From the NCBI GenBank assembly GCA_947478845.1, contig CANJXC010000011.1, positions 62,001-126,000 of the forward strand: DNA of 64,000 nucleotides, read 5' to 3'. Positions within the stretch are counted from its first letter, which is position 1; every line of letters begins with the position of its first letter. Below are positions 7,225 to 56,618 of the stretch, piece by piece. A program made the translations under genes and the position numbers. The stretch comes from Spirochaetales bacterium. Its GTDB lineage: Bacteria > Spirochaetota > Spirochaetia > JABEVK01. Under the pieces are notes generated by a model, which made no database searches, was not told the DNA's origin, and was given only the letters and a program-made list of their open reading frames with translations.

Positions 7225-8937
7225 CTACTTCTCGTGCATCACCGTCATGCCGTCCCAGTTTGGCGGAGGCGGAGTGGCCAGCATCTGGTCGCAACGACTG
7301 ACAAACTGCTCGGCCATGTGGTCGCCAGGTAGCCAGCGGTCGAGAGTTTCTTGTAGCAGGACTTTGGCTCCCGTGAAGTCACGGGCATAGTACTTCTCGA
7401 GGCCAGAGTGCCAAGTGGCCCAGCCGATTTTTTCAGCTTCGGTAAGGGACTTTTGCGCGGTGTAAATGCTCTCGCCCGTAGTTTTTCCCTTTACCATCAC
7501 TTTGTCGAGCATGCGGCAGTACACATACCGACCCACTTGCTGGTACACGCTATCGCTGAAGAGAAGTTGTTGGTGGTAGAGCTTGGTGAGGCCCTCAAGG
7601 CGACTGGCGAGGTTCACGTTGTCGCCGATGACGGTGTAGTTGAGTTTCTTCTCGCTTCCCATGTTTCCCACGGTCACTTTCCCGAAGTTGATACCGATGC
7701 CGATTTTGAACTCGACTCTGCCCTTGGCAAGTTGCTCGGAGTTGAACATTTTCAGCCCTTCGGTCATCTCTAGGGCGGTGATGACGCTCAACAGGGCGTC
7801 GTTTTCTGTTCGCACAGGAGCGCCAAAAAACGCCATAATGGCATCGCCGATGTACTTGTCGACCGTGCCACCACGGGCTATCACAATATCGACCATGACG
7901 CTGAAGTAGCGGTTGAGCGTCTTCACCAGTTGGTCGGGTTCCATGGTCTCGCTGATGGTGGTGAACCCGCGGATGTCGCTGAACAGGATGGCAATGGCAC
8001 GGTCGGTGCCCACAAGCATGCTTTCGGGGTGTCCCAACACAGCATCGATAACGTCGCTGGGTACGTACTTCTGAAAGATTGCCCGGATTTTCTGTTCCTT
8101 GCGCTTGGCGAGCACCGACTGAAACGCAAAGTTCTTAATCTGCTTGTTGGCCATGCCTAATTGGGCGAGCATCTGGTTGAAGGTATCGGCCATGCGCCCG
8201 ATCTCGTCGGGAAACTCGACCTCCACGCGCCGTTCAAGATTGTTGTCCACCATAATTTCTTCCATGGTGCGGACCATTTTGCTCACAGGGCGGGTGAGGT
8301 AACTGCTGAAGAAAAACAAAAGCACAAAGGCGAACAACAACGAGGCGCCGAGAATGAAGTAGTTCTGAGTGTTGATTTCGCGCACACCCTGAAAAAAAGT
8401 GTCTCGGGCTTCGCTCACCACCACATACCATTGAAAGGCAGTTTTTCGAGGAGCGGTTTCGGTGGGTCCGGCGCTGGCGACAAACTCAAACAGTTGTCCC
8501 ACACGCTCGATACCCTCCAAGGTAAAAGAGTTGTAGCCGGCCCTACCAGCCTTGCGCATCGCCTGAAGGGCTTCGAGTTCGCCCGGTTTCCAGTCGATGG
8601 TCCTGCTATTCATGGCCAGCTTTCCCTCCGCATCGATGGCAAAGATTAGTTCACTGTCGCTGCGGATAAGGCTTCTAGCAAAATCGGCGATGCCGGCTCG
8701 GGTTACTTCCACATATTTATCGTTGCCAGTCAGGTTGCTGGTAAGCAGCAGGCTCCACTGGTTATCGGCATTCTTCTTGAGCTCCTCTGCCTTGAATCCT
8801 AAGAAGTCGATAGCCACTTTGGTGATGCCAGTTTCGGCCGAAAACACCGCAGCAAGGCCGGAAATGAGCAGCGTTGTGACCAAGAGCGGAAGAACGATGA
8901 GAAGAATCTTCCATCGGATGTTGAGTCGGACTCTCAC
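7225..8937 (-). CDS. Membrane-bound class III adenylate cyclase with periplasmic sensor and HAMP
   Basis: A 570-residue receptor cyclase making cAMP from ATP. Order: transmembrane helix (about 10-30), periplasmic sensor region (about 32-190), second helix (about 194-213), HAMP linker (about 213-262), class III cyclase domain (about 310-500), and a C-terminal helical tail. Cyclase residues are complete: metal-binding D321 (FSDIRGF) and D365 (YIGDAIM), adenine-selecting K361 and T435 (LNYTVIGD), and transition-state N442 and R446. The K/T pair indicates ATP rather than GTP as substrate. GTG at 8937 is chosen so the first helix follows a short basic N-terminus; longer starts would run into the divergent gene. 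A second cyclase (39371-41383) shares the catalytic architecture but is soluble. Confidence 0.92.
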   Translation of the reverse strand: MRVRLNIRWKILLIVLPLLVTTLLISGLAAVFSAETGITKVAIDFLGFKAEELKKNADNQWSLLLTSNLTGNDKYVEVTRAGIADFARSLIRSDSELIFAIDAEGKLAMNSRTIDWKPGELEALQAMRKAGRAGYNSFTLEGIERVGQLFEFVASAGPTETAPRKTAFQWYVVVSEARDTFFQGVREINTQNYFILGASLLFAFVLLFFFSSYLTRPVSKMVRTMEEIMVDNNLERRVEVEFPDEIGRMADTFNQMLAQLGMANKQIKNFAFQSVLAKRKEQKIRAIFQKYVPSDVIDAVLGHPESMLVGTDRAIAILFSDIRGFTTISETMEPDQLVKTLNRYFSVMVDIVIARGGTVDKYIGDAIMAFFGAPVRTENDALLSVITALEMTEGLKMFNSEQLAKGRVEFKIGIGINFGKVTVGNMGSEKKLNYTVIGDNVNLASRLEGLTKLYHQQLLFSDSVYQQVGRYVYCRMLDKVMVKGKTTGESIYTAQKSLTEAEKIGWATWHSGLEKYYARDFTGAKVLLQETLDRWLPGDHMAEQFVSRCDQMLATPPPPNWDGMTVMHEK

Positions 8938-8971
8938 CCTGCAAGAATCGGCATGAAGACGGCCGACCTGA

Positions 8972-11122
8972 ATGCCGATAGTGAAACAAATGGCCGAGAC
9001 GCCCGCTCCCACCCTAGAAACCGAACTCCACTCGGGAGCCTTCACCGAGGAAGAACAGTCAGAGATCCTGAACGAGATCGAAACGGCGGCTTCTTCGGCA
9101 CACATGCAGGCCGCCACTGTCTTGGAAGCCTTTCAACCGGCCAAGCGGGGTGTACTTTTTCCAGTCGTGATCAATCTAATGGCGGTTGCCTTGGTGGTGG
9201 GAGCCTGGTTTGGCGCCCAAGCCTACTTCACAAACAGGCAAGATGGCCTAAAAATCAAGACAACTCAACTCTTTGGCGCCGAAAGTTCCCTGCTTGCCAA
9301 GGTTCTTGAGGATTCGAAGGCCCAGCTCGACGCCAAGAATGCCGAAATCGGGAGCATCCAGGCTAACCTCGATAAACTTTCCCAGGAAAAGAACCTCTTG
9401 GTAGCTAATTTTGATAGCCAGTTAAAGGCCAAGGAAAGCGCGCTCAGAGCCGACGTTGCCAAACAACTCGAAGCCGAAAAGGCCAGGTTGCTGGGCCTTG
9501 GGGTCAGTAAGAGTGATATTTCTGCCAAGCTCAGCGAGTTTGAGTCGCAGAGGACCGCCGAGTTGAAGCAAGCGTTGGACACTTACAAGAAATCCGCCCA
9601 GGCCGAGATTGACCAACGGACTAAGGAGGTGGACAGCCTCCAAGCCAAGGTGGCTTCCGCCCAGGCGGAAACGGCCAAGCTCAAGGCCGATTACGACAAG
9701 CAAAACCTGGCGCGGGAGAAAGACCTAAGGGGTCAATTCAGCATTCAGTTGGCGAGCCTCGACAAACTGTCGCAGGAGCGCGACGAACTGACTTTGTTCT
9801 TTCGCCAAACCGATGCCCAGTACGCTTCCGTGCGTACAGCCCTCTTAGGTGGCGATGTGGCCAAGGCTCAGGCCTCCGTCGGCCTGCTCAAAGGGGTGCT
9901 CAAAACGGGAGCGGCTTCGATGACGGAAGTGGTGCGTCAACGGTCGCAGGCAGACCTCGTGCTGGCTGTAGCCCTCGAGAGTGCAGTTAATCAACTCGCT
10001 GACAGTGCAAAAAAACCCGACGCCGATCCCAAATACGAAGCCTTCAAAGTTGCTGTTCGACGCGCCGGAACAGCACCAGTTGAAGAACGTTCCGCATTGA
10101 TGAGCAAGGCGTTAGCTAGCCTTCCCGAGGTGGATGCAGCCGTTACATTAGTGCAGGCTTGGGAAAGCCAGAAGGCGGCGGCTCAACTTGCCGATAAACT
10201 GAAGGCTGCGGAGACTCAACGCCTGCGAGAGGTTTCCAGCCTGAACACAACTGTTTCCGACCGCGAAAAGGACTTGTCGTTGTTGCGCTCCCAATGGGCC
10301 GAGCTCACCTCAAAAGCGGAGAGCAGCGACGCCAACCTGGTGTCGATATCAGGCATACTCAAGCAACAGGTTAGCGACCTTCAGAAGCAGCTCACCGACC
10401 TCGAGAGTCAAATGAAGGTGCTGGTTGCCGAAAAAGCCCAGTGGAAGGCTCTTTCCGCGCTCTACGAGGCGAGCCGAGACCAAGCGCTGGCTTCCCTCGT
10501 GGACCCCAAGAATGCGGACTTCGGGAGCGCCAAGACGCTATTCCTCCAACCGTTTACCAGCGACTCTGGAAAACAGTTCTTCCCGGACTACACAGCGACC
10601 TTCGATGCGTTAGTGGCAAAGCTCAGCCCGATTCCAGCGGCTGCCATCAGCCCCGTGGATCAGATGGCAAAGGGGCGACAACAGGCCTTTAAAGATGTGC
10701 TTTTGTTCACTTCTTACTTGCGAGGAGAGGCGGGAACCGCAGCCTCGCCGAAGGACGCTCAGGCCTCCACCGAAAAACTCTTCCGTACCGACGACGGCTA
10801 CAAGGAAGTTGTGGACGCCATCCAGAAACTTACCCAGTCGGGGGCCAAAGAAACGATTCTTCAGACCGACAAGTTCAAGCTCCTAGGCGCCGTGCTCTCC
10901 CGGTCGGGACTTCATCTGACGATTGAGCCATTGACGGCGGCCGGCGCCACGGTTGGTCAGTCCGTCGAAGTACGGCGCAGTTCGGGAAAAACTGAAACCG
11001 TACTGGCACGGGGAATCATCACTGTAGTAGGAACTAAGAAGATCGAAGCCGATTTGGCAACCGCTAGTGCACCCCGGACTGAACCGGCCGCTGGCGACAC
11101 CGTGTACCTGATTCTGAACTGA
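8972..11122 (+). CDS. Single-pass membrane protein with long coiled coil
   Basis: A 716-residue protein that I do not recognise. An acidic, glutamate-rich cytoplasmic start is followed by one transmembrane helix (VVINLMAVALVVGAW, about residues 62-80) and then a long region rich in K, E, Q, A and L with heptad-like spacing (about 105-270 and 390-500), expected to be an extended coiled coil in the periplasm. The C-terminal 150 residues look globular, ending in a beta-rich segment with a GIITVVGTKKIEAD turn. Neither ATG at 8972 nor ATG at 8990 has a clear ribosome site, so the start is uncertain by six codons. It is divergent from the receptor cyclase. A role in spanning or organising the envelope is plausible but unproven. 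Confidence 0.75.
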   Translation: MPIVKQMAETPAPTLETELHSGAFTEEEQSEILNEIETAASSAHMQAATVLEAFQPAKRGVLFPVVINLMAVALVVGAWFGAQAYFTNRQDGLKIKTTQLFGAESSLLAKVLEDSKAQLDAKNAEIGSIQANLDKLSQEKNLLVANFDSQLKAKESALRADVAKQLEAEKARLLGLGVSKSDISAKLSEFESQRTAELKQALDTYKKSAQAEIDQRTKEVDSLQAKVASAQAETAKLKADYDKQNLAREKDLRGQFSIQLASLDKLSQERDELTLFFRQTDAQYASVRTALLGGDVAKAQASVGLLKGVLKTGAASMTEVVRQRSQADLVLAVALESAVNQLADSAKKPDADPKYEAFKVAVRRAGTAPVEERSALMSKALASLPEVDAAVTLVQAWESQKAAAQLADKLKAAETQRLREVSSLNTTVSDREKDLSLLRSQWAELTSKAESSDANLVSISGILKQQVSDLQKQLTDLESQMKVLVAEKAQWKALSALYEASRDQALASLVDPKNADFGSAKTLFLQPFTSDSGKQFFPDYTATFDALVAKLSPIPAAAISPVDQMAKGRQQAFKDVLLFTSYLRGEAGTAASPKDAQASTEKLFRTDDGYKEVVDAIQKLTQSGAKETILQTDKFKLLGAVLSRSGLHLTIEPLTAAGATVGQSVEVRRSSGKTETVLARGIITVVGTKKIEADLATASAPRTEPAAGDTVYLILN

Positions 11123-39370: not shown

Positions 39371-41383
39371 CTATTTCGAGGTGAGCGTCCAAACCCCGTC
39401 CCAAGCTTCTGGCGGGTTGGCCGTCAGGGTCTGGCAACGTTCCTGCATAAGGCTCGAAGGGTTGAGTTTGGTCGGATGGCGCTCCAAGGGAGCCGAGGCT
39501 TCGAAGGCTGCCATGGCCTCCGGAAATTTCCCTGCGCGGAAAGCGCGGACACCAGAGGTGAAGGTGTCCACCAGGGTTTGCTGCTCGGGGGTCACCTGAC
39601 CGGGCAAGCCTATCAACTCGAACACTTCCACCGGCTCAACTTTGCCTTTAACCCGAATCAGGTCGATGGGTCGGGACACAAACTCGCCGTGGAGACTCCC
39701 CAACGAAAAACTGCTCACCAAGTTGTCCAGACCATATTGCTTGGAAGCCGATTCCAAGCGGGCGGCCAGGTTCACGGGGTCGCCAATCATAGTGAGGTCT
39801 ATGCGGGCGTCGGCAGAGCCGATATCGCACAAAATCACATCGCCAGTGTTCACTCCCATGCGTATGAGAATGGGATCCTCCTTGAGCAGGGGATCTTTTT
39901 CGTTCATCTCGTTGAGGGCGCCACGGATGCGCAGCAAAAATCCCATGGCCGATCGCGCTGAGCGCACGGGATCTTCGTCCATCCAGAACGCCATGCAGGC
40001 GTCGCCGATGAACTTGTCGATGTCGCCTCCCGACTCTGTGATGACGCGGGTCATCACTGAGAACAGAGTGTTGATCTGGTCAACGATTTCACGAGGGGTA
40101 TAGCGTTCGCAGCGGGCCGTAAAATTGACAATATCGCTGAAGAAAATGGTGGCGTTCTTGCGATAAGCCCGCGCCGCGTTGTCGGAACCTGAGAGAATCG
40201 ACTTCTCAAGGGCCATCTTGCGTGAGGCCTTCGAAACGTATTTCTCCATGTGGGCTTTTTCCACTTCGGCCTTGAGTTTGGCGAGGGTTCGCTCAACGGC
40301 GGCCAAGAGGCTATCGTGGTTAAACGGCTTGGTAATGGTTCCCCGGGCACCGGCCTGCGTGAGCATCTTGGCCTCGCTCTCCCCTTCCGCCTCGGTAAAC
40401 ACGAGCATACCGCTGTTTCCGGCCGCGGGAAGATCTTTCATGGCTTTGAGCAGATCGAGCGCACTGCCGTCAGAAAGCTCGGACTCGCAGAGAACCAATT
40501 CATGGCTGAAGCGCCGCAGCACCTTGACCGCCTCACCGAGTGTGGAGCAAACCCGGGGAGAAAACCCTTGGCGGCTGAGTACCTGCACGGTGGCTCGGGC
40601 CAAGGTAGGGTCTGATTCCACCACCAAGATGTTTTCGCGGCCCGCCAAATTGCGTTTGAAAATCAGGTCAAGGCGGGCAAGCAGATCAGGAATATGCACC
40701 GGCTTGGTAACGTAGTCGTCTACCCCGGCGGCGAACCCTCGGCGTTGGTCGGCCACAGAACTCAGGGTACTCGACATAATAATAGGCACTTCGCGGAGAG
40801 CAGGAACAGAACGGATAGCGCGCACGGCCTCGAACCCGTTCATCACCGGCATTTCGATGTCAGAGATAATGAGGTCGGGTGGGCTCTTCTTGGCAGCCTC
40901 GACCCCTTGGGAACCATCGTAGGCGGACACAACTTCGTAGCCCTCGGCTTCCAGTGGCGGCACCAGATGCTTGTGGACCAACTTGGAATCGTCGATGACC
41001 AGAATGCGGCGCTTCTTTTCGGAAAGGGCCCTGATGGTCTCCACCAGGTCGTCTTTCGAAATCGGAAAATGGACAAACGCGTCGACCACCGTGCGGGCAT
41101 ATTCGTACACCTGGTAGTCAGCAGACAAAAGCACGACGCGGATAGTATCAGAAAAAAGGCGCTTCAGCTTTTTGCAGATTTCGATGAGCTCGTTCTCATG
41201 GCTATCGGACTGGAGAATGAGAATCCCTTGCGGGTTTTCGGCTACCTGAAACACGAACTGCTCGTAGGGCACGAACGAGTCGTCGCCGAGTTTGAACTCG
41301 GAGGCCACGTAGGCCTTGTAACTTTCGTCTTCCAAGCAAAAAAGGAGTTTTTGCGAGAGGGGCTGTTTGCGTTTCTCACTCAT
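39371..41383 (-). CDS. Multi-receiver response regulator with adenylate cyclase output
   Basis: A 670-residue soluble regulator, last gene of the chemosensory operon. Residues 1-118 form a degenerate receiver-like domain; 125-243 a canonical receiver with acidic pair D131/D132, phospho-acceptor D175 (LIISDIEMPVMNG) and K227; 250-370 a third receiver in which the acceptor is replaced by E300 (LVLCESELSDG) while K352 remains. A short helix leads to a class III cyclase domain (about 408-560) with metal ligands D417 and D461, adenine-selecting K457 and T531, and N538/R542 for transition-state binding. It should make cAMP under control of phosphorylation by the adjacent CheA. A helical tail follows. 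The ATG overlaps the cheA stop (ATGA). Confidence 0.92.
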   Translation of the reverse strand: MSEKRKQPLSQKLLFCLEDESYKAYVASEFKLGDDSFVPYEQFVFQVAENPQGILILQSDSHENELIEICKKLKRLFSDTIRVVLLSADYQVYEYARTVVDAFVHFPISKDDLVETIRALSEKKRRILVIDDSKLVHKHLVPPLEAEGYEVVSAYDGSQGVEAAKKSPPDLIISDIEMPVMNGFEAVRAIRSVPALREVPIIMSSTLSSVADQRRGFAAGVDDYVTKPVHIPDLLARLDLIFKRNLAGRENILVVESDPTLARATVQVLSRQGFSPRVCSTLGEAVKVLRRFSHELVLCESELSDGSALDLLKAMKDLPAAGNSGMLVFTEAEGESEAKMLTQAGARGTITKPFNHDSLLAAVERTLAKLKAEVEKAHMEKYVSKASRKMALEKSILSGSDNAARAYRKNATIFFSDIVNFTARCERYTPREIVDQINTLFSVMTRVITESGGDIDKFIGDACMAFWMDEDPVRSARSAMGFLLRIRGALNEMNEKDPLLKEDPILIRMGVNTGDVILCDIGSADARIDLTMIGDPVNLAARLESASKQYGLDNLVSSFSLGSLHGEFVSRPIDLIRVKGKVEPVEVFELIGLPGQVTPEQQTLVDTFTSGVRAFRAGKFPEAMAAFEASAPLERHPTKLNPSSLMQERCQTLTANPPEAWDGVWTLTSK

Positions 41384-44277
41384 ACTGGTACTTCCTGGGC
41401 GGTATGCTCTTGCAAGGCTCTTAGTAGCTCGTCCGGGTCCACGGGCTTCTGGAAGACCCCGCTGATGCCGAGTCCAGCGATACGGCTTTGCTCGACGTGC
41501 CTGCCCGAAATCAGGAAGACAGGGATGTTGGAGTAGGAAGGAACTTTTCGCAGGCGCTCGACGAGTTCGTAACCGTCCATCAGCGGCATTACGATATCGA
41601 CAAAAAGCGCTGAAAACACTTTATTGCGACAGACCTTGAGGGCATCAAAACCATTTTCTGCCATCTCGATTTGATAATCGCCGCGCTTGAGGATGTTCCT
41701 TAAGTTTTCACGCTGAATTGAGGAGTCATCGACGATGAGTACCGAGGGCCGCAAACGGGTGCCACTGCCCGGCTGTCTGTCGTTGAGTGCCGGCGAGCCC
41801 GAGGCCCTCACGGCGTCGAGAATCTGCCGCGGGTCGAGAATCTGCACGAGCTTGCTGTCGCGCAAGATGGTGCAACCCATCACAAAAGGAACTTTTTTGA
41901 GCAGGGTTCCCAAGTTCTTGATAAGAATTTCCTGGCGGCCAATCACCGAATCGACAAGCACACCCACCAAGCGGGAGTTCTCTCCGAGGATAATCAGGGG
42001 AATACGCTCGTCCGCGAACGAACTGGGAGAAAACTCCAAGAGGGTGGAGAGGCTGGTAACGGGCAAGGTTTGGCCCTGCAGGTTGTACAGCAAGTGGCCG
42101 TCAATGCGCTGCAGTTCGCTTCGGCTCACCGTAAGCAGAGTTTCGATATTCAAGATGGGCAACGCGAACTGACGCGAAGACTCCTGCACCAAAAGGATCT
42201 TGACGATAGCCAGTGTGAGTGGAAGTTTTAGTTTGAAGCGCGAACCTTGCCCGGCGATGGTGGAACTTTCGATGGTTCCCTGCAGCTGGTGGATGGCCGT
42301 TTTCACGACGTCCATTCCCACACCGCGACCAGAAAGCTCTGTCACCTTGTCGTTGGTAGAAAACCCAGGAAGGAACAGCAGATCCAGAATCTCGGGTTCG
42401 GTGAGCGGCTCGGCCCGATTGGCGGGGATCAGGCCCTTTTCTCGGGCTTTTGCCTCGACTCGGGCCAAATCGATGCCACGTCCGTCGTCGCGAACTTCAA
42501 TTACGGCATGCGAACCGTAGTAGTAGGTCTCGAGGGTGATGACGCCGACTTCTGGCTTTCCGGCCGCCAGCCGCGTTTCAGGATCTTCGATGCCATGGTC
42601 GATCGAGTTGCGAAGCATGTGCAACAGCGGGTCGGCAATCCGGTTGATGAGAACCTTGTCGAGCTCGGTTTCACCACCAACAATCTGCACTTTGACCTTC
42701 TTGCCAATCGTCCGGGCCAAGTCGCGAAGCTGTTGGGGGAACCTGTCAAGAAGGCTGGCAATGGGCACCATGCGGAAGCTCATGGCTCCGTTTTGTAGCC
42801 TGGTGGAAAGCCGTCCCAAAGTTTCCACGTTCTTCTGAAGCTGCTTTTGGATCTCATCGAGCATTAGGTGGTTGAGGTTGAGTTCCTCTTGCAGGGTGAG
42901 TTCCCCCTCGTTGGGCTGGGGCAAAAGAGGCGCCATTTCGGTGGCACGCTCGATGACGGCTTTCGAAGAAGCAAGGTACTGGGTAATGGCCGAAACTTCG
43001 TTTTGGAAGCGGATGCGGCCGATGAAAATCTCGGAAGCGGTATTGAGCACTTCATCGAGCTTTTCAGAGCTGATGCGAAGGCTCTCTCCTCCCTTCTCTT
43101 TTTCCTTTTCCGGGTGGGGCGCTGCGGCCGGGGCACGCGCTGCGGGGGCTGCAGCCACAGCCGGCAAATTGCCGGGTTGCACATTATCCGCATGCGGGGC
43201 GCCGCTGTGTGCTTCGCCTTGGGTGGGCTCAGGGCGGGCCACTGGAGAGGCTGCCGGGGCACTCATGCCCCCCGCTAGGGCTTGAATTTTGGCCACGGTG
43301 GGGCCGATGCGGGTGAGGAAAGGTCCCCGTCCAGCGGCTTCTGTGAGCATTTCTCCGAGCAAGTCTTTGCCTTCGAGAAGTAGGTCCACCGCTTCGGGGG
43401 TGGCCTTGGCCGTTCCTTGGCGGATTCTATCGAGCACCGACTCCATCACGTGCGACAAGGACTCCATCTTGCGGATGCGCATCATGCGCGCCCCACCCTT
43501 GAAGGTGTGGATCATGCGAAACAGGTCTTGCACCAAGGTAGGGGAATCACCGGCGGACTCGAGTTCCACCAAAGCATTGGCAAACTGGGCCAGAATGTCT
43601 GAGTTCTCTTCAAAGAAGTCGCTGAGCATGCCCACTTTGTCGTCGGGTAGGTTGAGCGCCTCAGGGCCGTCGTCAAACTCCGGAACCGGGGGTCCCTGTA
43701 CGGCCACGGAAGCAGGAGCAGACTCGGTAGAGGAAGCACCCTCAGAGGTTGGCTCGCTTGGGGGTGCATAAATTGGTTCGGGGTCGGGCTCGGGTTGAGT
43801 CTGAGCTGCCTCGATGCGGAGGTTCCATTCTTTCAAAGGGCCAGTGAGGTAGTTTCCAGCCTCGTCCACCAAATCGCCTACCTCGGGAGGGGCCACTTCA
43901 GCGCCGCCCTCAAAAGAAGCCAGAGTTTCCAGCTTCTCGTAGAACAACGTGATCAAGTAGTCGATCGAGTGCACCTTCACGGTTTGGAGCTGGCGGGCCA
44001 AGTCGAGGGCGAAATCCAGGATCTGCAGCAGATGATCAATGCGCGCCAAACCAAACAAACCAGCCATACCGGCCAGGATGTGGTTCTGCCTATAAAAATG
44101 ATCCAGCTGCATCTCCAAATCATCACCAGGGGCGATCTTATTGAAGCTCTCTCGCAGCCCCTTGAGCCTCGGCGGCAAGCTCTGAACAAAGGTGAGGGCA
44201 CCAGCTTTGGCTTTGAGTCGAAGAGTTTCGCCGCGTTCGAGGTCGCGTACAACAAACAGGTCTGAGGGATAGGTCAT
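41380..44277 (-). CDS. cheA: Hybrid chemosensory histidine kinase CheA with two Hpt domains and a receiver
   Basis: A 965-residue CheA. Order: an Hpt-like domain with H66 in NHILAGMAGLFGL (the usual lysine after His-x-Leu is alanine), a proline/serine-rich linker (about 160-205), a canonical Hpt with H257 in MIHTFKGGARMM, a second linker (about 335-398), dimerisation (about 400-510), ATPase with HMLRNSIDHGIE, DDGRGID and GRGVGMDVVK, a CheW-like regulatory domain (about 690-825) and a C-terminal receiver with D894 (LFVDIVMPLMDG) and K944. No CheY-binding P2 domain is evident. GGGAG precedes the ATG 3 bp after the CheW gene. The fused receiver may act as phosphate sink or relay to the cyclase encoded next. 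Confidence 0.94.
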   Translation of the reverse strand: MTYPSDLFVVRDLERGETLRLKAKAGALTFVQSLPPRLKGLRESFNKIAPGDDLEMQLDHFYRQNHILAGMAGLFGLARIDHLLQILDFALDLARQLQTVKVHSIDYLITLFYEKLETLASFEGGAEVAPPEVGDLVDEAGNYLTGPLKEWNLRIEAAQTQPEPDPEPIYAPPSEPTSEGASSTESAPASVAVQGPPVPEFDDGPEALNLPDDKVGMLSDFFEENSDILAQFANALVELESAGDSPTLVQDLFRMIHTFKGGARMMRIRKMESLSHVMESVLDRIRQGTAKATPEAVDLLLEGKDLLGEMLTEAAGRGPFLTRIGPTVAKIQALAGGMSAPAASPVARPEPTQGEAHSGAPHADNVQPGNLPAVAAAPAARAPAAAPHPEKEKEKGGESLRISSEKLDEVLNTASEIFIGRIRFQNEVSAITQYLASSKAVIERATEMAPLLPQPNEGELTLQEELNLNHLMLDEIQKQLQKNVETLGRLSTRLQNGAMSFRMVPIASLLDRFPQQLRDLARTIGKKVKVQIVGGETELDKVLINRIADPLLHMLRNSIDHGIEDPETRLAAGKPEVGVITLETYYYGSHAVIEVRDDGRGIDLARVEAKAREKGLIPANRAEPLTEPEILDLLFLPGFSTNDKVTELSGRGVGMDVVKTAIHQLQGTIESSTIAGQGSRFKLKLPLTLAIVKILLVQESSRQFALPILNIETLLTVSRSELQRIDGHLLYNLQGQTLPVTSLSTLLEFSPSSFADERIPLIILGENSRLVGVLVDSVIGRQEILIKNLGTLLKKVPFVMGCTILRDSKLVQILDPRQILDAVRASGSPALNDRQPGSGTRLRPSVLIVDDSSIQRENLRNILKRGDYQIEMAENGFDALKVCRNKVFSALFVDIVMPLMDGYELVERLRKVPSYSNIPVFLISGRHVEQSRIAGLGISGVFQKPVDPDELLRALQEHTAQEVPV

Positions 44278-44279
44278 GG

Positions 44280-45194
44280 TCACTCCCTGTAAGCGGCCAA
44301 ATGCCGGCTGGAAAAGAGCTGGGCGCCCGAGAGCACGAAGATTCGCTGTTCGGTAGTTTCGATGATACCCCGCAAGTATTCCGACAGTTCTCCCATCATG
44401 ATTTCTCCGGGGACAGAGACACGGTCGTTGGGTATACGGAGTTTGTGCGAAACCTGGTCGATGCACAGAGCGAGGTCGAGTCCATCGCCTTGCAGAACGA
44501 GGAACTGGTTTTTCTCTTCCAGCAGACGAGGCGGAGCCCCCAAGGCTGCTGAAAGGTCGACGCAGGCCAGAATTTGGCCCCGCAGATTGACCAAACCCCT
44601 CAGGAACGGGTCAACCCGGAACAAGGGCTCCACTGTATACCCTTCGATCACTTCGGTGAGGTCAACGATGGGAAGGGCGAAGTTGAGACCGGCCAGCGTG
44701 AAGCCGATCAGTTCGGCTTCTTCTACTGGTGCCGCAAGGACGGCGATTTCTACTTTTTGGGCTTCCCTCAGCTCCTGTAACTCTTTCGCTATCCAATCTA
44801 CAAGAACCCGGGTATCGAGCCGGTGGACGGCTTCGCCGTCCTGCCGGTAGAGCCGGTCGACCACCTTATCGTTGGAAGAACCCAAGGGCTCCTCCAAAAT
44901 GGCATTGGCCAAAAACTTATCGATGCGGATGGCGAAAATGCTCTCACCGACACCCAAAACAATCACCAGGCAGGGGTTTGCCGGGACCTCTGGTACTTGC
45001 ATATCGATCCAAGCCGGGAGGTCGATTACCGGGCAAAACGACGCGCGGAAGTCTAGAAAACCCACGAAACCCGGCTTCGCCAGCGGCGAAGGCAGGATTC
45101 GCTGCGCCATCACCACCTCTCGCACCAAACCAATGGGAACAGCGTAGCGAAAGCTATTTCTCAGGAAGAGGGAATGCTGGCGCTCATCATGCAT
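44280..45194 (-). CDS. Tandem double-CheW coupling protein
   Basis: A 304-residue protein made of two CheW domains in a row, instead of the usual single domain of about 160 residues. The first (about 8-150) contains [13 protein letters not shown] and [18 protein letters not shown]; the second (about 158-295) has [36 protein letters not shown] and [16 protein letters not shown]. The second matches the family better, with the NLRG motif that contacts the receptor; in the first this reads DFRA. It should link receptors to CheA. The ATG overlaps the MCP gene by 8 bp. Two fused CheWs could hold an array with unequal receptor and kinase contacts. Confidence 0.9.
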
Positions 45195-46818
45195 GGTGGG
45201 TGTGGGCCAATTTGAAGAACGAGATGGTCTTGTTCAACTGTTCCATCTGAGCCGAAGTTTCCTCTGAAATCGAGGCCAGTTCCTCAGAGACGGCAGCATT
45301 GGTCTGAACGTTCCCATTCATGTCTTGCAGCGCGTTATTAATTTGCGACGAGGCGGCGCTTTGCTCGCCGGAGGCTTCGGTAATGCTCTTCACCATGCTC
45401 GAGGTTTTCTGAATGTCGGGAATCAGGCTGTTGAGCTTCTGACCGGCGGCCTCAGAAACTTGCATGCTGTAGGCCGTTAGGTTGGTGATGTCGACGGCTG
45501 CGGCCTGGCTCCTTTCGGCGAGTTTTTGCACCTCCGAGGCGACAACGGCGAAGCCTCGGCCATGCTCACCGGCGCGGGCGGCCTCGATGGCGGCATTGAT
45601 GGCCAGCAGGTTGGTTTGGCCAGCGATTTCTTCGATGATGGAGATCTTGGTGGCGATCTCTTTCATCGCCTTCACTGTGTTGCGCACGGCTTCGCCGGTC
45701 TCCTTGGTATCGAGAGCGGCCTGCTCGGCGATGGCTTCGGTCTTCACGGCATTTTCGGCGTTGCCTCGCACTCCTGAGGCCATCTGCTCCATGGAGGCGG
45801 AAACTTCTTCGAGAGACGCGGCCTGCGCACTGGCTGCCTGGGAGATTTCCTGAGACGAGGAACTGATCTGGTTGGAAGCCTCGAGTAGCGCCGCAATTGA
45901 CTGCTGTACATCGGTCATCACATCGGTGAGTGATTTCTTCATATGAATCAAAGACTGGCCCAAGGCGTCATTATCGGCCGCAGGGGCAATGTCGGTATCG
46001 AGCCTTCCCTCGGAAATTGACTGCATGGAGGAGGCGCGGGATTGCAGAGAAGCCACCATGGCCAGTAACGACCGGGCCAAATCGCCAATTTCGTCGCGAC
46101 GTTTGAGGTCGGCATCGCGGGGTTTGACATCAAAGTTCCCGCCAGCCACCATCTGCGACAATCTCACGCCGGAGGTGAGCGCTCTGGAAAGTGACATCGC
46201 CAGAATGAGGCCGATAACCAAAGACAGGACAATACCGGCCACGACGCAAACCAACAAAAACAGGGAAGCATTTTGAGAAACTAGCGTGTCATCCTTATGA
46301 CCTTGGTCTAGGGAGGCCTTCATGTAGTCGAGCAGCACCTTCAGCTTCTCGGCCAAGACTTTGCGGGCGGCTACCATTTCGGAGCCGAGCAGGCCCTTGA
46401 TCAGCTGCTTGTTCTTGCCGTTGAGCCCCAAGAGCATCAACGGTTCCAAGTTATCTAAGTACGTTTGGGTGGCTTTGACCAACGCTAGGTAGTTGGCGCG
46501 GTCGGTTTCATCGAGGATGGTGGTTTCGTAGCCTTTCAGGGCGTCACGCATCTTTTGCTGGGAATCTTTGTAGGTCTTATCGATAGCTAAGGTTTCGGCC
46601 TCGGTAAGCGTGATCGCCTGGTCGCGGGCCGCGACGCGGATAGCGCCATAGGCTGTGTTGAAGTCCTGCATGTAATACAGCGACACAACACCGTATTGGT
46701 AAGCGTTGGTCTGATTCGTTTGAAGGGTGGAAAGGCCAAAGAGGCCGGTCAAACCAGTTGCCAAGCCCACCAGGGCGACCGCCAGAAATCCGGCCAAGAG
46801 CTTTATTCGAATTGACAT
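45187..46818 (-). CDS. Methyl-accepting chemotaxis protein (4HB sensor), operon head
   Basis: A 543-residue transmembrane chemoreceptor. Order: helix 1 (about 7-28), four-helix-bundle periplasmic sensor (about 30-185), helix 2 (about 187-212), HAMP (about 212-265), a second HAMP-like segment (about 266-305, [18 protein letters not shown]), and the kinase-control domain with the conserved hairpin [20 protein letters not shown]. No C-terminal CheR/CheB-tethering pentapeptide is present. It starts the operon MCP - double CheW - CheA - cyclase, behind a near-perfect sigma-28 promoter. The receptor at 55009-56523 is a close paralogue lacking the second HAMP-like segment. Ligand unknown. Confidence 0.95.
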
Positions 46819-46885
46819 GGGTCCTCCAAAGGAATCGGAAGGATTCTGGAGGGACTTAGAGCGCCTCCAGAACCTGTTTTAGGAA

Positions 46886-46912
46886 GTATCGGCTTACAGG
46901 GCCGAAACTTTA
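46886..46912 (-). promoter_or_regulatory. Sigma-28 (FliA-type) promoter of the chemosensory operon
   Basis: Minus strand: TAAAGTTT (46912-46905), an 11-nt spacer, then GCCGATAC (46893-46886). The E. coli FliA consensus is TAAAGTTT-N11-GCCGATAA, so 15 of 16 positions match with ideal spacing. It spans the stop codon of the carbonic anhydrase gene and lies about 65 bp before the MCP ATG. It ties the operon to flagellar-class expression. Confidence 0.85.
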
Positions 46913-48066
46913 CCTGTTTCGATATCGTAGTAGGCGGCTTTGAAGTTCAATTTGCCGCTTTTGAAGGCTTCGCTCAGGATATCCGAGCCTTTAATCTTCT
47001 TAAGCACCAGTTTGGCGTTCTCGCGGATGGAGTTATCGAGGAGGTCGCCCTTGAAAAAACGGGCTGATTCGACAGCCGGACGGATCTGCTCGGCAATCGC
47101 CTCAATATTGGGGGGCAATTCCCCCCCCTTGACTGTCGCGTCAACCGCTCCGCACTTTTTGTGGCCCATCGCCACGATGTATTGGGCACCTAAGTGTTCG
47201 ATGGCGTACTCGATGCTCCCGAGTTCCACTTCCGTAACTACTTCGCCGGCCGTGCGAACTACAAACAGGTCACCCAAGCCCTGGTCAAACAAAATTTCAG
47301 GAGGAAGGCGCGAGTCGGAGCAGCACACCACGACTGCAAACGGCTTCTGCCCCTTCGCTGTTTCAGCGACTCGTGCCATGGTTTGGTTCGGGCGGGTGAC
47401 TTTTCCGCTGGTAAATCGCAGGTTTCCCTCCACCAGTTTCTGCCAGGTAGCGTCGCCCACCGGTTGCGAGGCCTTAGCTTCGGCGGTAACCTCAGTGGTT
47501 TTTGCCGAGGTGCCATGGGTGGCCGTCTTCTCTGCGGTGGCAGTTTTTTCGGCCGTGGAGTGAGTGTTGGCGGTGGCAGTTTTTTCGGCCGTGGAATGGG
47601 TTTCAGCGGTGGCAGTTGCCATCTGGGCTACAAACACCGGCAGTTCGGTACGCACCCTCTCGAGGTATCCCAATGCAAGATGCACCGCATGCTCGGCATC
47701 TTGGGCTTTGTTCATCCCTGACCAATCGACCCCCTTTTGCACACTCACCACCCCCTTCGAGCTCACCTGGGCCCGAAAATTGAACTCGTTGGTTTCATCG
47801 TGAATCTGGAGGAGCCAACCTGCGCCCTTGCGGGTGACGGCCATCCAGTGTTCGGGGTTCAGGCGCGCCACAAACGAGGTGGCATCCTGCTTGAGAAGAT
47901 TTCCCACTCCAGCGATGTAGGTGAGGTTGTCGCCCGTCACTTTGACTGGCGGTACCTGATCATTGGGGCTGTAGGTGACGTAGTCGACAAATGTGGCTTC
48001 TGCGGAAACCAAGGTTGCGCAGGCCAAAAAAAGAGCCGCGGCCAGGACTCGATAGGTAAACTTCAT
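46894..48066 (-). CDS. Exported beta-carbonic anhydrase with novel N-terminal domain
   Basis: A 390-residue protein interconverting CO2 and bicarbonate. Signal peptide (ALFLACATLVSA; Cys16 could alternatively be a loose lipobox) is followed by an unrecognised domain (about 23-150), a low-complexity Thr/Ala/Glu linker (about 150-200) encoded by 36-bp repeats, and a beta-class carbonic anhydrase domain (about 205-390). Zinc ligands are C249 (CCSDSR), H302 and C305 (GHKKCGAV), with the catalytic D251-R253 pair. The AKLVLKKIKGSD and AAYYDIETGKV end is typical. Own promoter: TTGACT-17-TACACT; GAGG before the ATG. Export and the extra domain are unusual for this class. Confidence 0.9.
   Translation of the reverse strand: MKFTYRVLAAALFLACATLVSAEATFVDYVTYSPNDQVPPVKVTGDNLTYIAGVGNLLKQDATSFVARLNPEHWMAVTRKGAGWLLQIHDETNEFNFRAQVSSKGVVSVQKGVDWSGMNKAQDAEHAVHLALGYLERVRTELPVFVAQMATATAETHSTAEKTATANTHSTAEKTATAEKTATHGTSAKTTEVTAEAKASQPVGDATWQKLVEGNLRFTSGKVTRPNQTMARVAETAKGQKPFAVVVCCSDSRLPPEILFDQGLGDLFVVRTAGEVVTEVELGSIEYAIEHLGAQYIVAMGHKKCGAVDATVKGGELPPNIEAIAEQIRPAVESARFFKGDLLDNSIRENAKLVLKKIKGSDILSEAFKSGKLNFKAAYYDIETGKVSAL
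47534..47620 (+). repeat. 36-bp in-frame tandem repeat, about 2.4 copies
   Basis: The unit starts with GCGGTGGCAGTTTTTTCGGC at 47534 and again at 47570, and partly at 47606. It lies in the carbonic anhydrase gene and encodes 12-residue repeats (THSTAEKTATA plus one residue) on the minus strand. The length of this linker may vary between strains by slippage. Confidence 0.85.
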
Positions 48067-48084
48067 GAATGCACCTCGTGAAAA

Positions 48085-48113
48085 AGTGTAAGCGAGAGCC
48101 TTGGCGTAGTCAA
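48085..48113 (-). promoter_or_regulatory. Carbonic anhydrase gene promoter
   Basis: On the minus strand TTGACT (48113-48108) and TACACT (48090-48085) are 17 nt apart. The ATG is about 19 bp below the -10, with a GAGG ribosome site between them. Confidence 0.5.
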
Positions 48114-48176
48114 ACTTTGATTTTTCGAATCTTGTACCGGCGAATCTTTCTGCAAAACCTGTTAGTATCGCGCCCA

Positions 48177-49499
48177 ATGACATTTTCCTCTTTAGGCCTG
48201 ATTCCCGAGCTTCTGCAAGCTGTCGCGGACAAAGGCTACGATACACCCACTTCCATACAGTCCCAAGCCATACCGGTGATCCTTGCCGGTCGCGATGTGC
48301 TCGGGGGCTCGCAAACCGGCACCGGCAAAACCGCGGCTTTCACCCTTCCCTTGTTGCAGCGCCTGCGCGGCATGATGCGCAACCCAGCCAAACCTGTGAT
48401 AAGGGCGCTGGTGCTTACCCCCACACGCGAACTCGCCCTTCAGGTGGAAGAAAGCATTCGCCATTACGGCAAACACCTCCACTTCAAGTCGATGACCATC
48501 TTTGGTGGGGTAAACGTGAACACCCAGGTGCGCACCCTGAAAACTGGCGTGGACATCATTGTGGCCACCCCGGGCCGCTTCCTCGACCCCGACATTCAAC
48601 AGCACCTCGATTTGGGCAGCGTGGAGTTTTTGATTCTCGACGAAGCCGACCGAATGCTCGATATGGGCTTCATCCGGGATATCCGCAAGGTGATCACCCT
48701 TTTGCCCAAACGCCGACAAAACCTGATGTTCAGCGCCACCTACAACGACGAAATTAGGGCCTTGGCCGAAAGCCTGCTCGACAACCCGGCCTCGATCGAT
48801 GTGGCCCCGCGCAATTCCGGAGTCGAGCTCATCACCCACGTCGTGCACCCGGTAGACCGCGAACGTAAGGCCGAACTGCTGATTCACCTGGCCAAGGTGC
48901 ACAACTTGAAGCAGGCCTTGGTGTTCACGCGCACCAAACACATGGCCAACCGGGTGGCCGACAAACTCAACGAGGCCGGCATCACGGCAATGGCCATCCA
49001 CGGTAACAAGAGCCAGCCCAAGCGGGTGCAGGCCTTGGGCGATTTCAAGTCTGGAAAAATCCGTATTCTGGTGGCCACCGACATTGCAGCACGAGGCCTC
49101 GACATTGTCGACCTGCCGCATGTGGTGAACTTTGAGCTGCCGTATGTGGCCGAAGACTTTGTGCACCGCACCGGCCGTACCGGCCGCAACGGGCAGGAAG
49201 GCGACGCCATCGCTCTGGTGTGCATCGATGAAGAACACCTGCTGCGGGGTATAGAACGCCTGATGAAGAAAGACCTTCCGCGCCAAACAATAGCCGGTTT
49301 TGCCCCCGACCCGCGCATTAAAGCCGAACCCATTTTGCGCAACTCCCGCTCTGGCGGCGGTGGCGGAAGACCTCAAGGTGGCCACCGACCCCCGGGAGCC
49401 CGCGGCCCGAGCGGCCATGCGGCCCCTGCTGGTTCGGCGAGGCCAACTGGTAGCGCGCGCCCGGGCTCGTTTGGCGGACGCGGGCAGCCCCGACGGTAG
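48177..49499 (+). CDS. rhlE: DEAD-box RNA helicase, RhlE-like
   Basis: A 440-residue ATP-dependent RNA helicase. Motifs in order are the Q motif ([14 protein letters not shown]), I (SQTGTGKT), Ia (PTRELA), Ib (TPGR), II (DEAD in [12 protein letters not shown]), III (SAT), IV (ALVFTRTK), V ([11 protein letters not shown]) and VI ([10 protein letters not shown]). The last 60 residues form a glycine/proline/arginine-rich tail typical of RhlE proteins, used for non-specific RNA contact. Role: ribosome assembly or RNA turnover. The ATG at 48177 matches the family start ([15 protein letters not shown]). There is no clear ribosome site, and a TGTTAGTAT extended -10 ends 9 bp before the ATG, so a near-leaderless mRNA is possible. 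Confidence 0.94.
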
Positions 49500-55008: not shown

Positions 55009-56523
55009 TTAGGAATGCCGGCTAGGGGCCAGTTTGAAGAAGGCTATGGTCTTGTTCAACTGTTGCATCTGAGCCGAGGTCTCCTCGGAAATCGAGGCAA
55101 GTTCCTCGGAGACCGCAGCGTTGGTCTGGACGTGATTATTCATGTCCTGCAATGCATGGTTGATTTGGGACGACGCGGCACTCTGCTCAGCCGAAGCTTC
55201 GGTGATGTTCTTTACCATGCCCGAAGTCTTCTGGATGTCGGGAATCAGGCTATCGAGCTTCATCCCGGCTGACTCAGAAACCTGCATGCTAAAAACGGTT
55301 AGTTCGGTGATCTCCCCGGCAGCAGCCTGGCAGCGTTCGGCCAATTTTTGCACTTCCGAGGCTACCACCGCGAACCCTCTCCCATGCTCACCGGCACGGG
55401 CGGCTTCGATGGCAGCGTTGATAGCCAGCAGGTTGGTTTGACCCGCAATTTCCTGGATGATCGAGATTTTGGTGGCAGTTTCTTTCATGGCCTTTACCGT
55501 GTTGCGCACGGCTTCGCCGGTCTCCTTGGTGTCGAGGGCTGCCTTATCGGCAATCGATTCCGTCTTGACGGCATTCTCAGCATTCCCTCGGATTCCGGCG
55601 GACATCTGTTCCATGGAGGCGGAAACTTCTTCGAGCCCGGCCGCTTGGGCACTGGCCGACTGCGCGATTTCTTGGGACGACGAACTGATCTGAGTGGAGG
55701 CCTCGAGGAGCGACGCAATGGATTGCTGCACCTCGGTCATCACCTCGGTTAGTGAGCCCACCATGCTTCGCAGCGCACGGGCGAGATCGCCGATTTCGTC
55801 GCGGCGTTTGAGGTCAGTCTCCCGGAGTTCAACATCAAGATTTCCTTGGGCCACCAACTGCGATACCCGCACTCCAGCCGTAAGGGCACTTGAAAGAGAC
55901 AAAGCTAAGATTAAGCCAATGATGAGGGAGAGCAGGAGACCGACTGCCACGCCAACCATCAAAAACAGGGAGGCATTTTGAGACTCTAACACATCATCTT
56001 TATAAGATTGTTCGAGGGACGCTCTATTGAACTCGAGCCAGACCCTAACTTTTTCGGCCAAGGTTTGGCTCACTGACGCGATTTCGGGGCCGAGCAAGGC
56101 TTTGAGCAGCAACTTTTTCTTGCCGTTCAGGCCCAAAAGCATCGCGGGCTCGAGTTGTGCAAAATAGGCTTTCGAGGCCTCGACGAGGGCTTCGTAGTCC
56201 GCCCTGTCGGTCGAGTCAGCTTTTATAGCGTCGTATTCTTTCAGGGCATCGCGCATAGACTGCTCAGCTTCTTTGTACTTTTTGTCATAGGTGAGTGTTT
56301 CGGCAGGGCTGGTGGTGGTAGCCTGATCAAAAGCGGCAACCCGGATGGCCCCGTAGGCGGCCGTAAAATCCTGAAGGACGTGAGAAGCAACGGTACCTGT
56401 CTCGTGGGAAGTTTTCAGATTTTGCCCAAGGGTTGAAAAACCAGAAATGCCAATCCAACCAGTTGCCAAACCCACCAGGGCAACCGCCAAAAATCCGGCC
56501 AAGAGCTTGATGCGTATCGACAT
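55009..56523 (-). CDS. Methyl-accepting chemotaxis protein, paralogue of operon MCP
   Basis: A 504-residue receptor with the same plan as the one at 45187-46818: helix 1, 4HB sensor, helix 2, HAMP, kinase-control domain with [20 protein letters not shown]. Its first 22 residues are identical to that paralogue, and the signalling domains are nearly the same, while the sensor domains differ at many positions. It lacks the 39-residue second HAMP-like segment, so the HAMP runs directly into the helical bundle. A sigma-28-like element precedes it. No che genes adjoin it, so it likely feeds the CheA at 41380-44277 with a different ligand range. Confidence 0.95.
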
Positions 56524-56590: not shown

Positions 56591-56618
56591 TGATCGGCAC
56601 AAACGAGGCAAAACTTGA
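56591..56618 (-). promoter_or_regulatory. Sigma-28-like promoter of the second MCP gene
   Basis: Minus strand: TCAAGTTT (56618-56611), a 12-nt spacer, GCCGATCA (56598-56591). Against TAAAGTTT-N11-GCCGATAA, 14 of 16 positions match, with the spacer one longer than ideal. It lies about 70 bp before the MCP ATG, just after trpA. Confidence 0.6.

Follow-up and report, generated by a model that had tools for sequence, protein, structure and literature searches.

A four-gene operon encoding a chemoreceptor (MCP), a double CheW, a hybrid CheA and a receiver-cyclase probably constitutes a compact chemosensory pathway with cAMP as its output, in which CheA would phosphorylate the second receiver (REC2) of the cyclase protein and thereby set cyclase activity. 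The operon occupies positions 39371-46818 (reverse strand; ORFs and Pfam) of the window, the 64,000-nucleotide stretch analysed here (contig 11, 62001-126000, of a 2.99 Mb genome with a completeness of 99.75%). Support comes from gene order, from the co-occurrence of CheA and cyclase, and from the conservation of catalytic and phosphotransfer residues; on these grounds the cyclase is likely to be the output of CheA, as a sequence-only reading of the window had proposed.

Organization of the operon

The four leftward genes have the order and domains assigned to them by that reading, as judged from ORFs and Pfam:

45187..46818, reverse strand: chemoreceptor (MCP), 543 aa; Pfam 4HB_MCP_1, HAMP and MCPsignal
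44280..45194, reverse strand: double CheW coupling protein, 304 aa; two CheW stretches, conserved in loci L009, L153 and L154
41380..44277, reverse strand: hybrid CheA, 965 aa, cryptic P1/Hpt - Hpt - dimerisation - HATPase - CheW - REC; Pfam, with invariant catalytic residues
39371..41383, reverse strand: REC1-REC2-REC3-adenylate cyclase, 670 aa; Pfam Response_reg and Guanylate_cyc, with five orthologues aligned

The genes had been described as joined by overlaps or a 3-bp gap. The overlaps stand (8 bp for MCP/cheW and 4 bp for cheA/cyclase), and the gap between cheW and cheA was corrected to 2 bp. A longer CheA reading frame of 1028 aa, starting at GTG, was rejected because it overlaps cheW and because its extra N-terminus is missing in the orthologues, whose alignment with CheA starts at the ATG (44277). 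The reported lack of CheY, CheB, CheR, CheC and CheD holds within the operon; CheR (5 matches) and CheB genes occur elsewhere in the genome.

The receiver-cyclase

Pfam recognises two receivers in the cyclase protein, and alignment combined with structure prediction gives three:

41018..41347, reverse strand: REC1, residues 13-122, receiver fold with D60 conserved and the lysine lost; alignment and a predicted alternating beta-alpha order
40670..41005, reverse strand: REC2, residues 127-238, intact receiver with D131, D132, D175, S204 and K227; Pfam and alignment
40280..40633, reverse strand: REC3, residues 251-368, with an invariant E300 replacing the phospho-acceptor Asp; alignment and structure prediction
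39635..40159, reverse strand: class III cyclase catalytic domain, residues 409-583; PF00211, nearest solved structure and invariance
39374..39589, reverse strand: C-terminal three-helix TPR-like tail, with predicted helices at 599-616, 620-633 and 642-655

The five REC2 pocket residues are unchanged across five orthologues, and D175, named earlier as the site to be phosphorylated, indeed lies at the invariant phospho-acceptor position of the alignment. The REC1 lysine is absent from every one of the aligned orthologues, while D60 is kept. Given the intact pocket of REC2, the loss of the lysine in REC1 and the Glu for Asp in REC3, REC2 is probably able to switch, whereas REC1 and REC3 probably are not.

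Aligned with CyaB, the catalytic domain carries all the residues of a class III adenylate cyclase of the K/T type (IIIb): D417 and D461 (metal), K457 and T531 (adenine type), and N538 and R542 (transition state) are invariant in five orthologues. This signature makes the protein a likely, predicted producer of cAMP. The nearest solved structure is Pseudomonas aeruginosa CyaB (3r5g); the structure model of the cyclase domain is itself poor, with large stretches of pLDDT <50.

CheA and its receptors

Three features of CheA bear on phosphotransfer:

43798..44205, reverse strand: N-terminal cryptic Hpt-like domain, residues 25-160, with invariant H66; helical bundle model, pLDDT 76
43342..43629, reverse strand: canonical Hpt, residues 217-312, with invariant H257; PF01627, E 4.7e-20
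41413..41742, reverse strand: C-terminal receiver, residues 846-955, DD/D/K intact; PF00072, with D850, D851, D894 and K944 invariant

Residues 1-160 have no Pfam recognition. The top Foldseek matches of the cryptic domain are CheA P1 domains, with a target TM of ~0.7 and weak E values (0.009-0.3). No P2 domain was found in this CheA.

The operon MCP combines two TM-like segments, a 4HB module, HAMP and an MCP signalling domain, with methylation-type motifs at 333 and 340; the pentapeptide that tethers CheR is absent from its C-terminus. A close relative is encoded 8 kb away:

55009..56523, reverse strand: second chemoreceptor, 504 aa, a paralogue 68% identical to the operon MCP

The other MCPs in the genome reach at best ~30% identity to the operon MCP. 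The paralogue probably feeds into the same CheA pathway as an additional input.

Promoters and the region upstream of the MCP gene

Both receptor genes are preceded by a candidate site for the flagellar sigma factor:

46886..46912, reverse strand: sigma-28 (FliA)-type promoter TAAAGTTT-N11-GCCGATAC upstream of the MCP gene, 15/16 match
56591..56618, reverse strand: sigma-28-like site TCAAGTTT-N12-GCCGATCA upstream of the second receptor gene, 14/16 match

We took membership of a sigma-28 regulon to mean a promoter near TAAAGTTT-N11-GCCGATAA together with FliA in the genome. The operon site matches at 15/16 positions, the runner-up in the window matches at 12, and no match in shuffled windows exceeds 12-13; FliA scores 287.6 bits against a cut-off of 189.6. 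The flagellar-type promoter noticed earlier is thus real as a sequence match, and the operon promoter is sigma-28-like by sequence. Genome-wide, a strict form of the pattern gave 3 matches and the reversed control also 3; such counts are uninformative, and the claim is carried by the local 15/16 match and the site of the second receptor gene. The upstream regions of the orthologous operons yielded no sigma-28 site, so that a link to motile cells is not shared among them and sigma-28 control would be local to this genome.

The gene next upstream, at window 46894-48246, encodes a beta-carbonic anhydrase extended by a long additional N-terminal part, and 75 bp separate it from the MCP gene. The end of the anhydrase gene falls inside the sigma-28 site, such that the -35 element lies within it. 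Between promoter and MCP start (window 46815-46905), a strong hairpin is predicted, together with a second one that pairs the Shine-Dalgarno stretch (z -4.2). The region was considered as a terminator and rejected: despite its good folding, it was not called by the terminator scan.

Conservation of the four-gene order

A search for genomes with the same adjacency of MCP, CheW, CheA and receiver-cyclase, as the sequence-only reading had advised, recovered the order in three other loci, far beyond chance. Two of these genomes belong to the same phylum as the window genome (probably Spirochaetota), with cyclases 59% (L153, genome G250) and 42% (L154, genome G035) identical to that of the window; the third (L009) was deposited as an uncultured proteobacterium and its cyclase is 52% identical. 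The assignment to Spirochaetota is suggested by a canonical cluster of CheA, CheW-CheR and CheX-like genes in the window genome and by small genome sizes in other families of its class. L155 (genome G105) is consistent with the operon, the assembly being broken there, and in G184 and G225 the contig stops just upstream of the cyclase. No CheY, CheR or CheB gene was found in the operons of L009, L153 and L154. The receptor input is swapped from locus to locus, from 4HB in the window to PAS (L009), dCache (L153) and a tandem MCP-tip/dCache arrangement (L154). The last of these (L154:14383-16419) contains the combination of short MCP tip and dCache twice, lacks a TM-like segment and a methylation motif, and on its sequence is possibly a soluble, non-adapting receptor.

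Cyclase orthologues were found in 6 of 393 genomes of the phylum. Across the same genomes, CheA matches above 700 bits occur only in the window genome (G000), G250, G035 and G105, the next best match scoring 396 bits, and all four of these CheA orthologues adjoin the cyclase. The cyclase is missing from six other genomes of the same order and present in 2 of 395 genomes of the class; such a rare and patchy distribution suggests horizontal spread or repeated loss. In the search of genome contigs, most matches beyond L009 and the Magnetospirillum locus L010 cover mainly the receiver domain.

Other CheA and receiver-cyclase pairings

Receiver-cyclases accompany CheA in further lineages. A second family (alignment A4) comprises proteins of ~630 aa in which a single receiver and a cyclase flank a middle region that Pfam does not match, and occurs in 17 of the 393 genomes (L194, L195, L196, L197, L198, L203, L208-L225). 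In 17 of 18 loci a CheA-REC gene lies directly upstream on the same strand; in L216 a reverse ORF masks the stretch. The more fully covered loci also encode CheB, CheR and one or two MCPs. We found no description of these CheA-REC and REC-cyclase clusters in the literature. Taken together, the two families are present in 22 of the 393 genomes, G250 having both. A third set (L200, L201 and L206) has CheA-REC and CheB together with a REC-cyclase that carries a Lys/Asp pair; the catalytic domains score far higher against PF00211, at 191 bits (L200) and 178 bits (L201). These receiver-cyclases follow CheB at:

L200:8764-9960, PF00211
L201:3867-5237, PF00211
L206:3743-4945, PF00211

Finally, a Magnetospirillum MAG (L010:4768-15343) encodes CheW, CheA, a CheW-like gene, REC-PAS-cyclase, MCP, CheR and CheB in one run.

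In the CheA tree, the window type is a separate clade (100/100), distinct from those of the second family and the third set and from the canonical clade. The canonical clade holds the C13 CheA of the same genome, and the operon CheA falls outside it. That different CheA lineages are repeatedly paired with receiver-cyclases is the strongest indirect support for CheA driving the cyclase, and suggests that cAMP output of chemoreceptor arrays is commoner in the phylum than described.

Proposed pathway and alternatives

We propose that the operon MCP and its paralogue, made under the flagellar sigma factor, would assemble into arrays with the double CheW and CheA, and that receptor state would control CheA autophosphorylation on the Hpt histidine or histidines. 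Phosphate would pass to D175 of REC2, and also to the C-terminal REC of CheA itself, a probable phosphate drain that ends the signal. Phosphorylated REC2 would change the arrangement of the cyclase dimer and hence the rate of cAMP synthesis, with REC1 and the D-to-E REC3 as fixed, non-switching modules that probably serve dimerisation and coupling. The cAMP would act on cNMP-binding proteins, for which the genome has thirteen matches. Counting in favour of this pathway is the invariance of the REC2 pocket, of Hpt H257, of the CheA REC residues and of all cyclase catalytic residues.

The sign of control is not fixed by the sequence, and in an unlikely though serious variant of the pathway, phosphorylation of REC2 inhibits the cyclase, such that active arrays lower cAMP. 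The Glu that replaces Asp in REC3 could mimic a permanently activated receiver, consistent with this variant. Against it stands the precedent of WspR- and PleD-type receiver cyclases, in which phosphorylation activates.

The intact receiver of CheA could itself be the main phosphate target, which counts against the proposed pathway. It is improbable, on balance, that CheA mainly phosphorylates this receiver and a CheY elsewhere, as a branch of taxis, with the cyclase co-transcribed and under the control of a different kinase or of small molecules. The genome does encode a cluster of canonical CheA, CheW-CheR and CheX-like genes and other chemotaxis clusters with CheY-like receivers; these other CheA and CheY proteins make cross-talk possible, and receptors behind a flagellar-type promoter would suit a role in taxis. 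However, the orthologous operons all lack CheY, the operon-type CheA is found only with the operon-type cyclase among the 393 genomes, REC2 is invariantly intact, and the operon CheA is not of the canonical type represented by the C13 protein.

Very improbable is a cyclase set chiefly by bicarbonate or CO2 and tied to the carbonic anhydrase gene, with receiver input secondary: some class III cyclases of the K/T type do respond to bicarbonate, the K457/T531 pair is present, and the anhydrase gene lies directly upstream, but inspection of ORFs recognised no carbonic anhydrase beside the L153, L154 and L009 operons, and the conserved partner of the cyclase is CheA.

Beyond control of the cyclase by CheA, a wider interpretation, held tentatively at a little short of an even chance, is that these operons represent a distinct class free of adaptation genes, in which flagellum-linked arrays would act as absolute sensors that set cAMP through one receiver-cyclase, the two non-switching receivers would provide coupling, and the wiring would have arisen several times in spirochaete-like bacteria.

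Relation to known systems

The Pil-Chp/CyaB system of P. aeruginosa likewise places cAMP under chemosensory control, and the operon catalytic domain is closest to CyaB among solved structures. CyaB is a separate cyclase, and PilG and PilH are stand-alone receivers; in contrast, receiver and cyclase are here one protein encoded beside CheA, and no stand-alone receiver of the PilG/PilH kind lies between or directly beside the four genes. The Wsp system of Pseudomonas (WspA-F, WspR) is alike in joining an array and a hybrid CheA to a response regulator that is itself a nucleotide-messenger cyclase. It differs in that WspR makes c-di-GMP and CheR/CheB homologues are present, whereas the operon encodes a three-receiver class III cyclase and neither CheR nor CheB; its output domain is PF00211 and not the GGDEF of a REC-GGDEF regulator. 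The second family described above (e.g. L194, L196 and L203) shares the direct succession of CheA-REC and REC-cyclase, but has one receiver, the Pfam-less middle region, a CheA of another clade and, usually, CheB, CheR and extra MCPs.

Mononucleotidyl cyclases are listed among the response-regulator outputs of CheR-TPR clusters assigned to the ACF (alternative cellular function) family (PMC3447774, 2012). In such clusters, too, the response regulator has several domains and a nucleotidyl cyclase as its output, which here takes the form REC-REC-REC-cyclase; the clusters were selected for cheR-TPR, whereas the operon lacks CheR and CheB and its CheA forms a clade of its own in our sample. Multiple Hpt domains, a C-terminal receiver and the lack of P2 are trends of ACF and Tfp CheAs (PMC10782961). 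The operon CheA shows all three, the second Hpt being a weak fold match only, and this combination is frequent in the ACF class, not exclusive to it. CheR and CheB, which are usual in ACF clusters (often as CheR-TPR) and not strictly required, are absent from the operon in the window and in L009, L153 and L154. The operon is probably a compact variant of the ACF kind without adaptation genes; the tree sets its CheA apart from the canonical clade of the phylum.

Two earlier claims of novelty fail on this comparison. The layout does not stand alone, since further CheA lineages of the phylum, and Magnetospirillum as well, have REC-cyclases adjoining CheA, and cyclase outputs are already listed (PMC3447774). 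Nor is it the case that known ACF pathways lack a cyclase as response regulator, as WspR is a REC-GGDEF diguanylate cyclase (PMC3447774). The operon is therefore not a new kind of system; what is new is the set of four genes without adaptation enzymes, the three-receiver cyclase, the swapped receptors and, in this genome, the sigma-28-type promoter. We found no description of the operon in the searchable literature, a scope that leaves out most subscription papers. It unites chemoreceptor arrays and cAMP, both well known in bacterial signalling, in a set of four genes that can be transferred intact to a laboratory strain, and a system without CheR or CheB offers a direct test of whether arrays signal usefully without methylation-based adaptation.

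Further cyclase genes in the genome

On contig 2 of the window genome (~142.0-152.2 kb; L094:4023-14212), a separate run encodes MCP, CheW, CheB, CheR, CheA-REC, and two tandem cyclases, a and b. No Hpt was recognised in this CheA-REC. Cyclase a keeps the metal Asp residues and has lost Asn/Arg; in cyclase b, Asn/Arg remain and the first metal Asp is gone, so that the two have the look of an obligate heterodimer. The window itself holds a further class III cyclase ORF, which lies at 7225-9117 (match at contig 11:69477-69998), and carries a similar PPxxWDG C-terminal tail.
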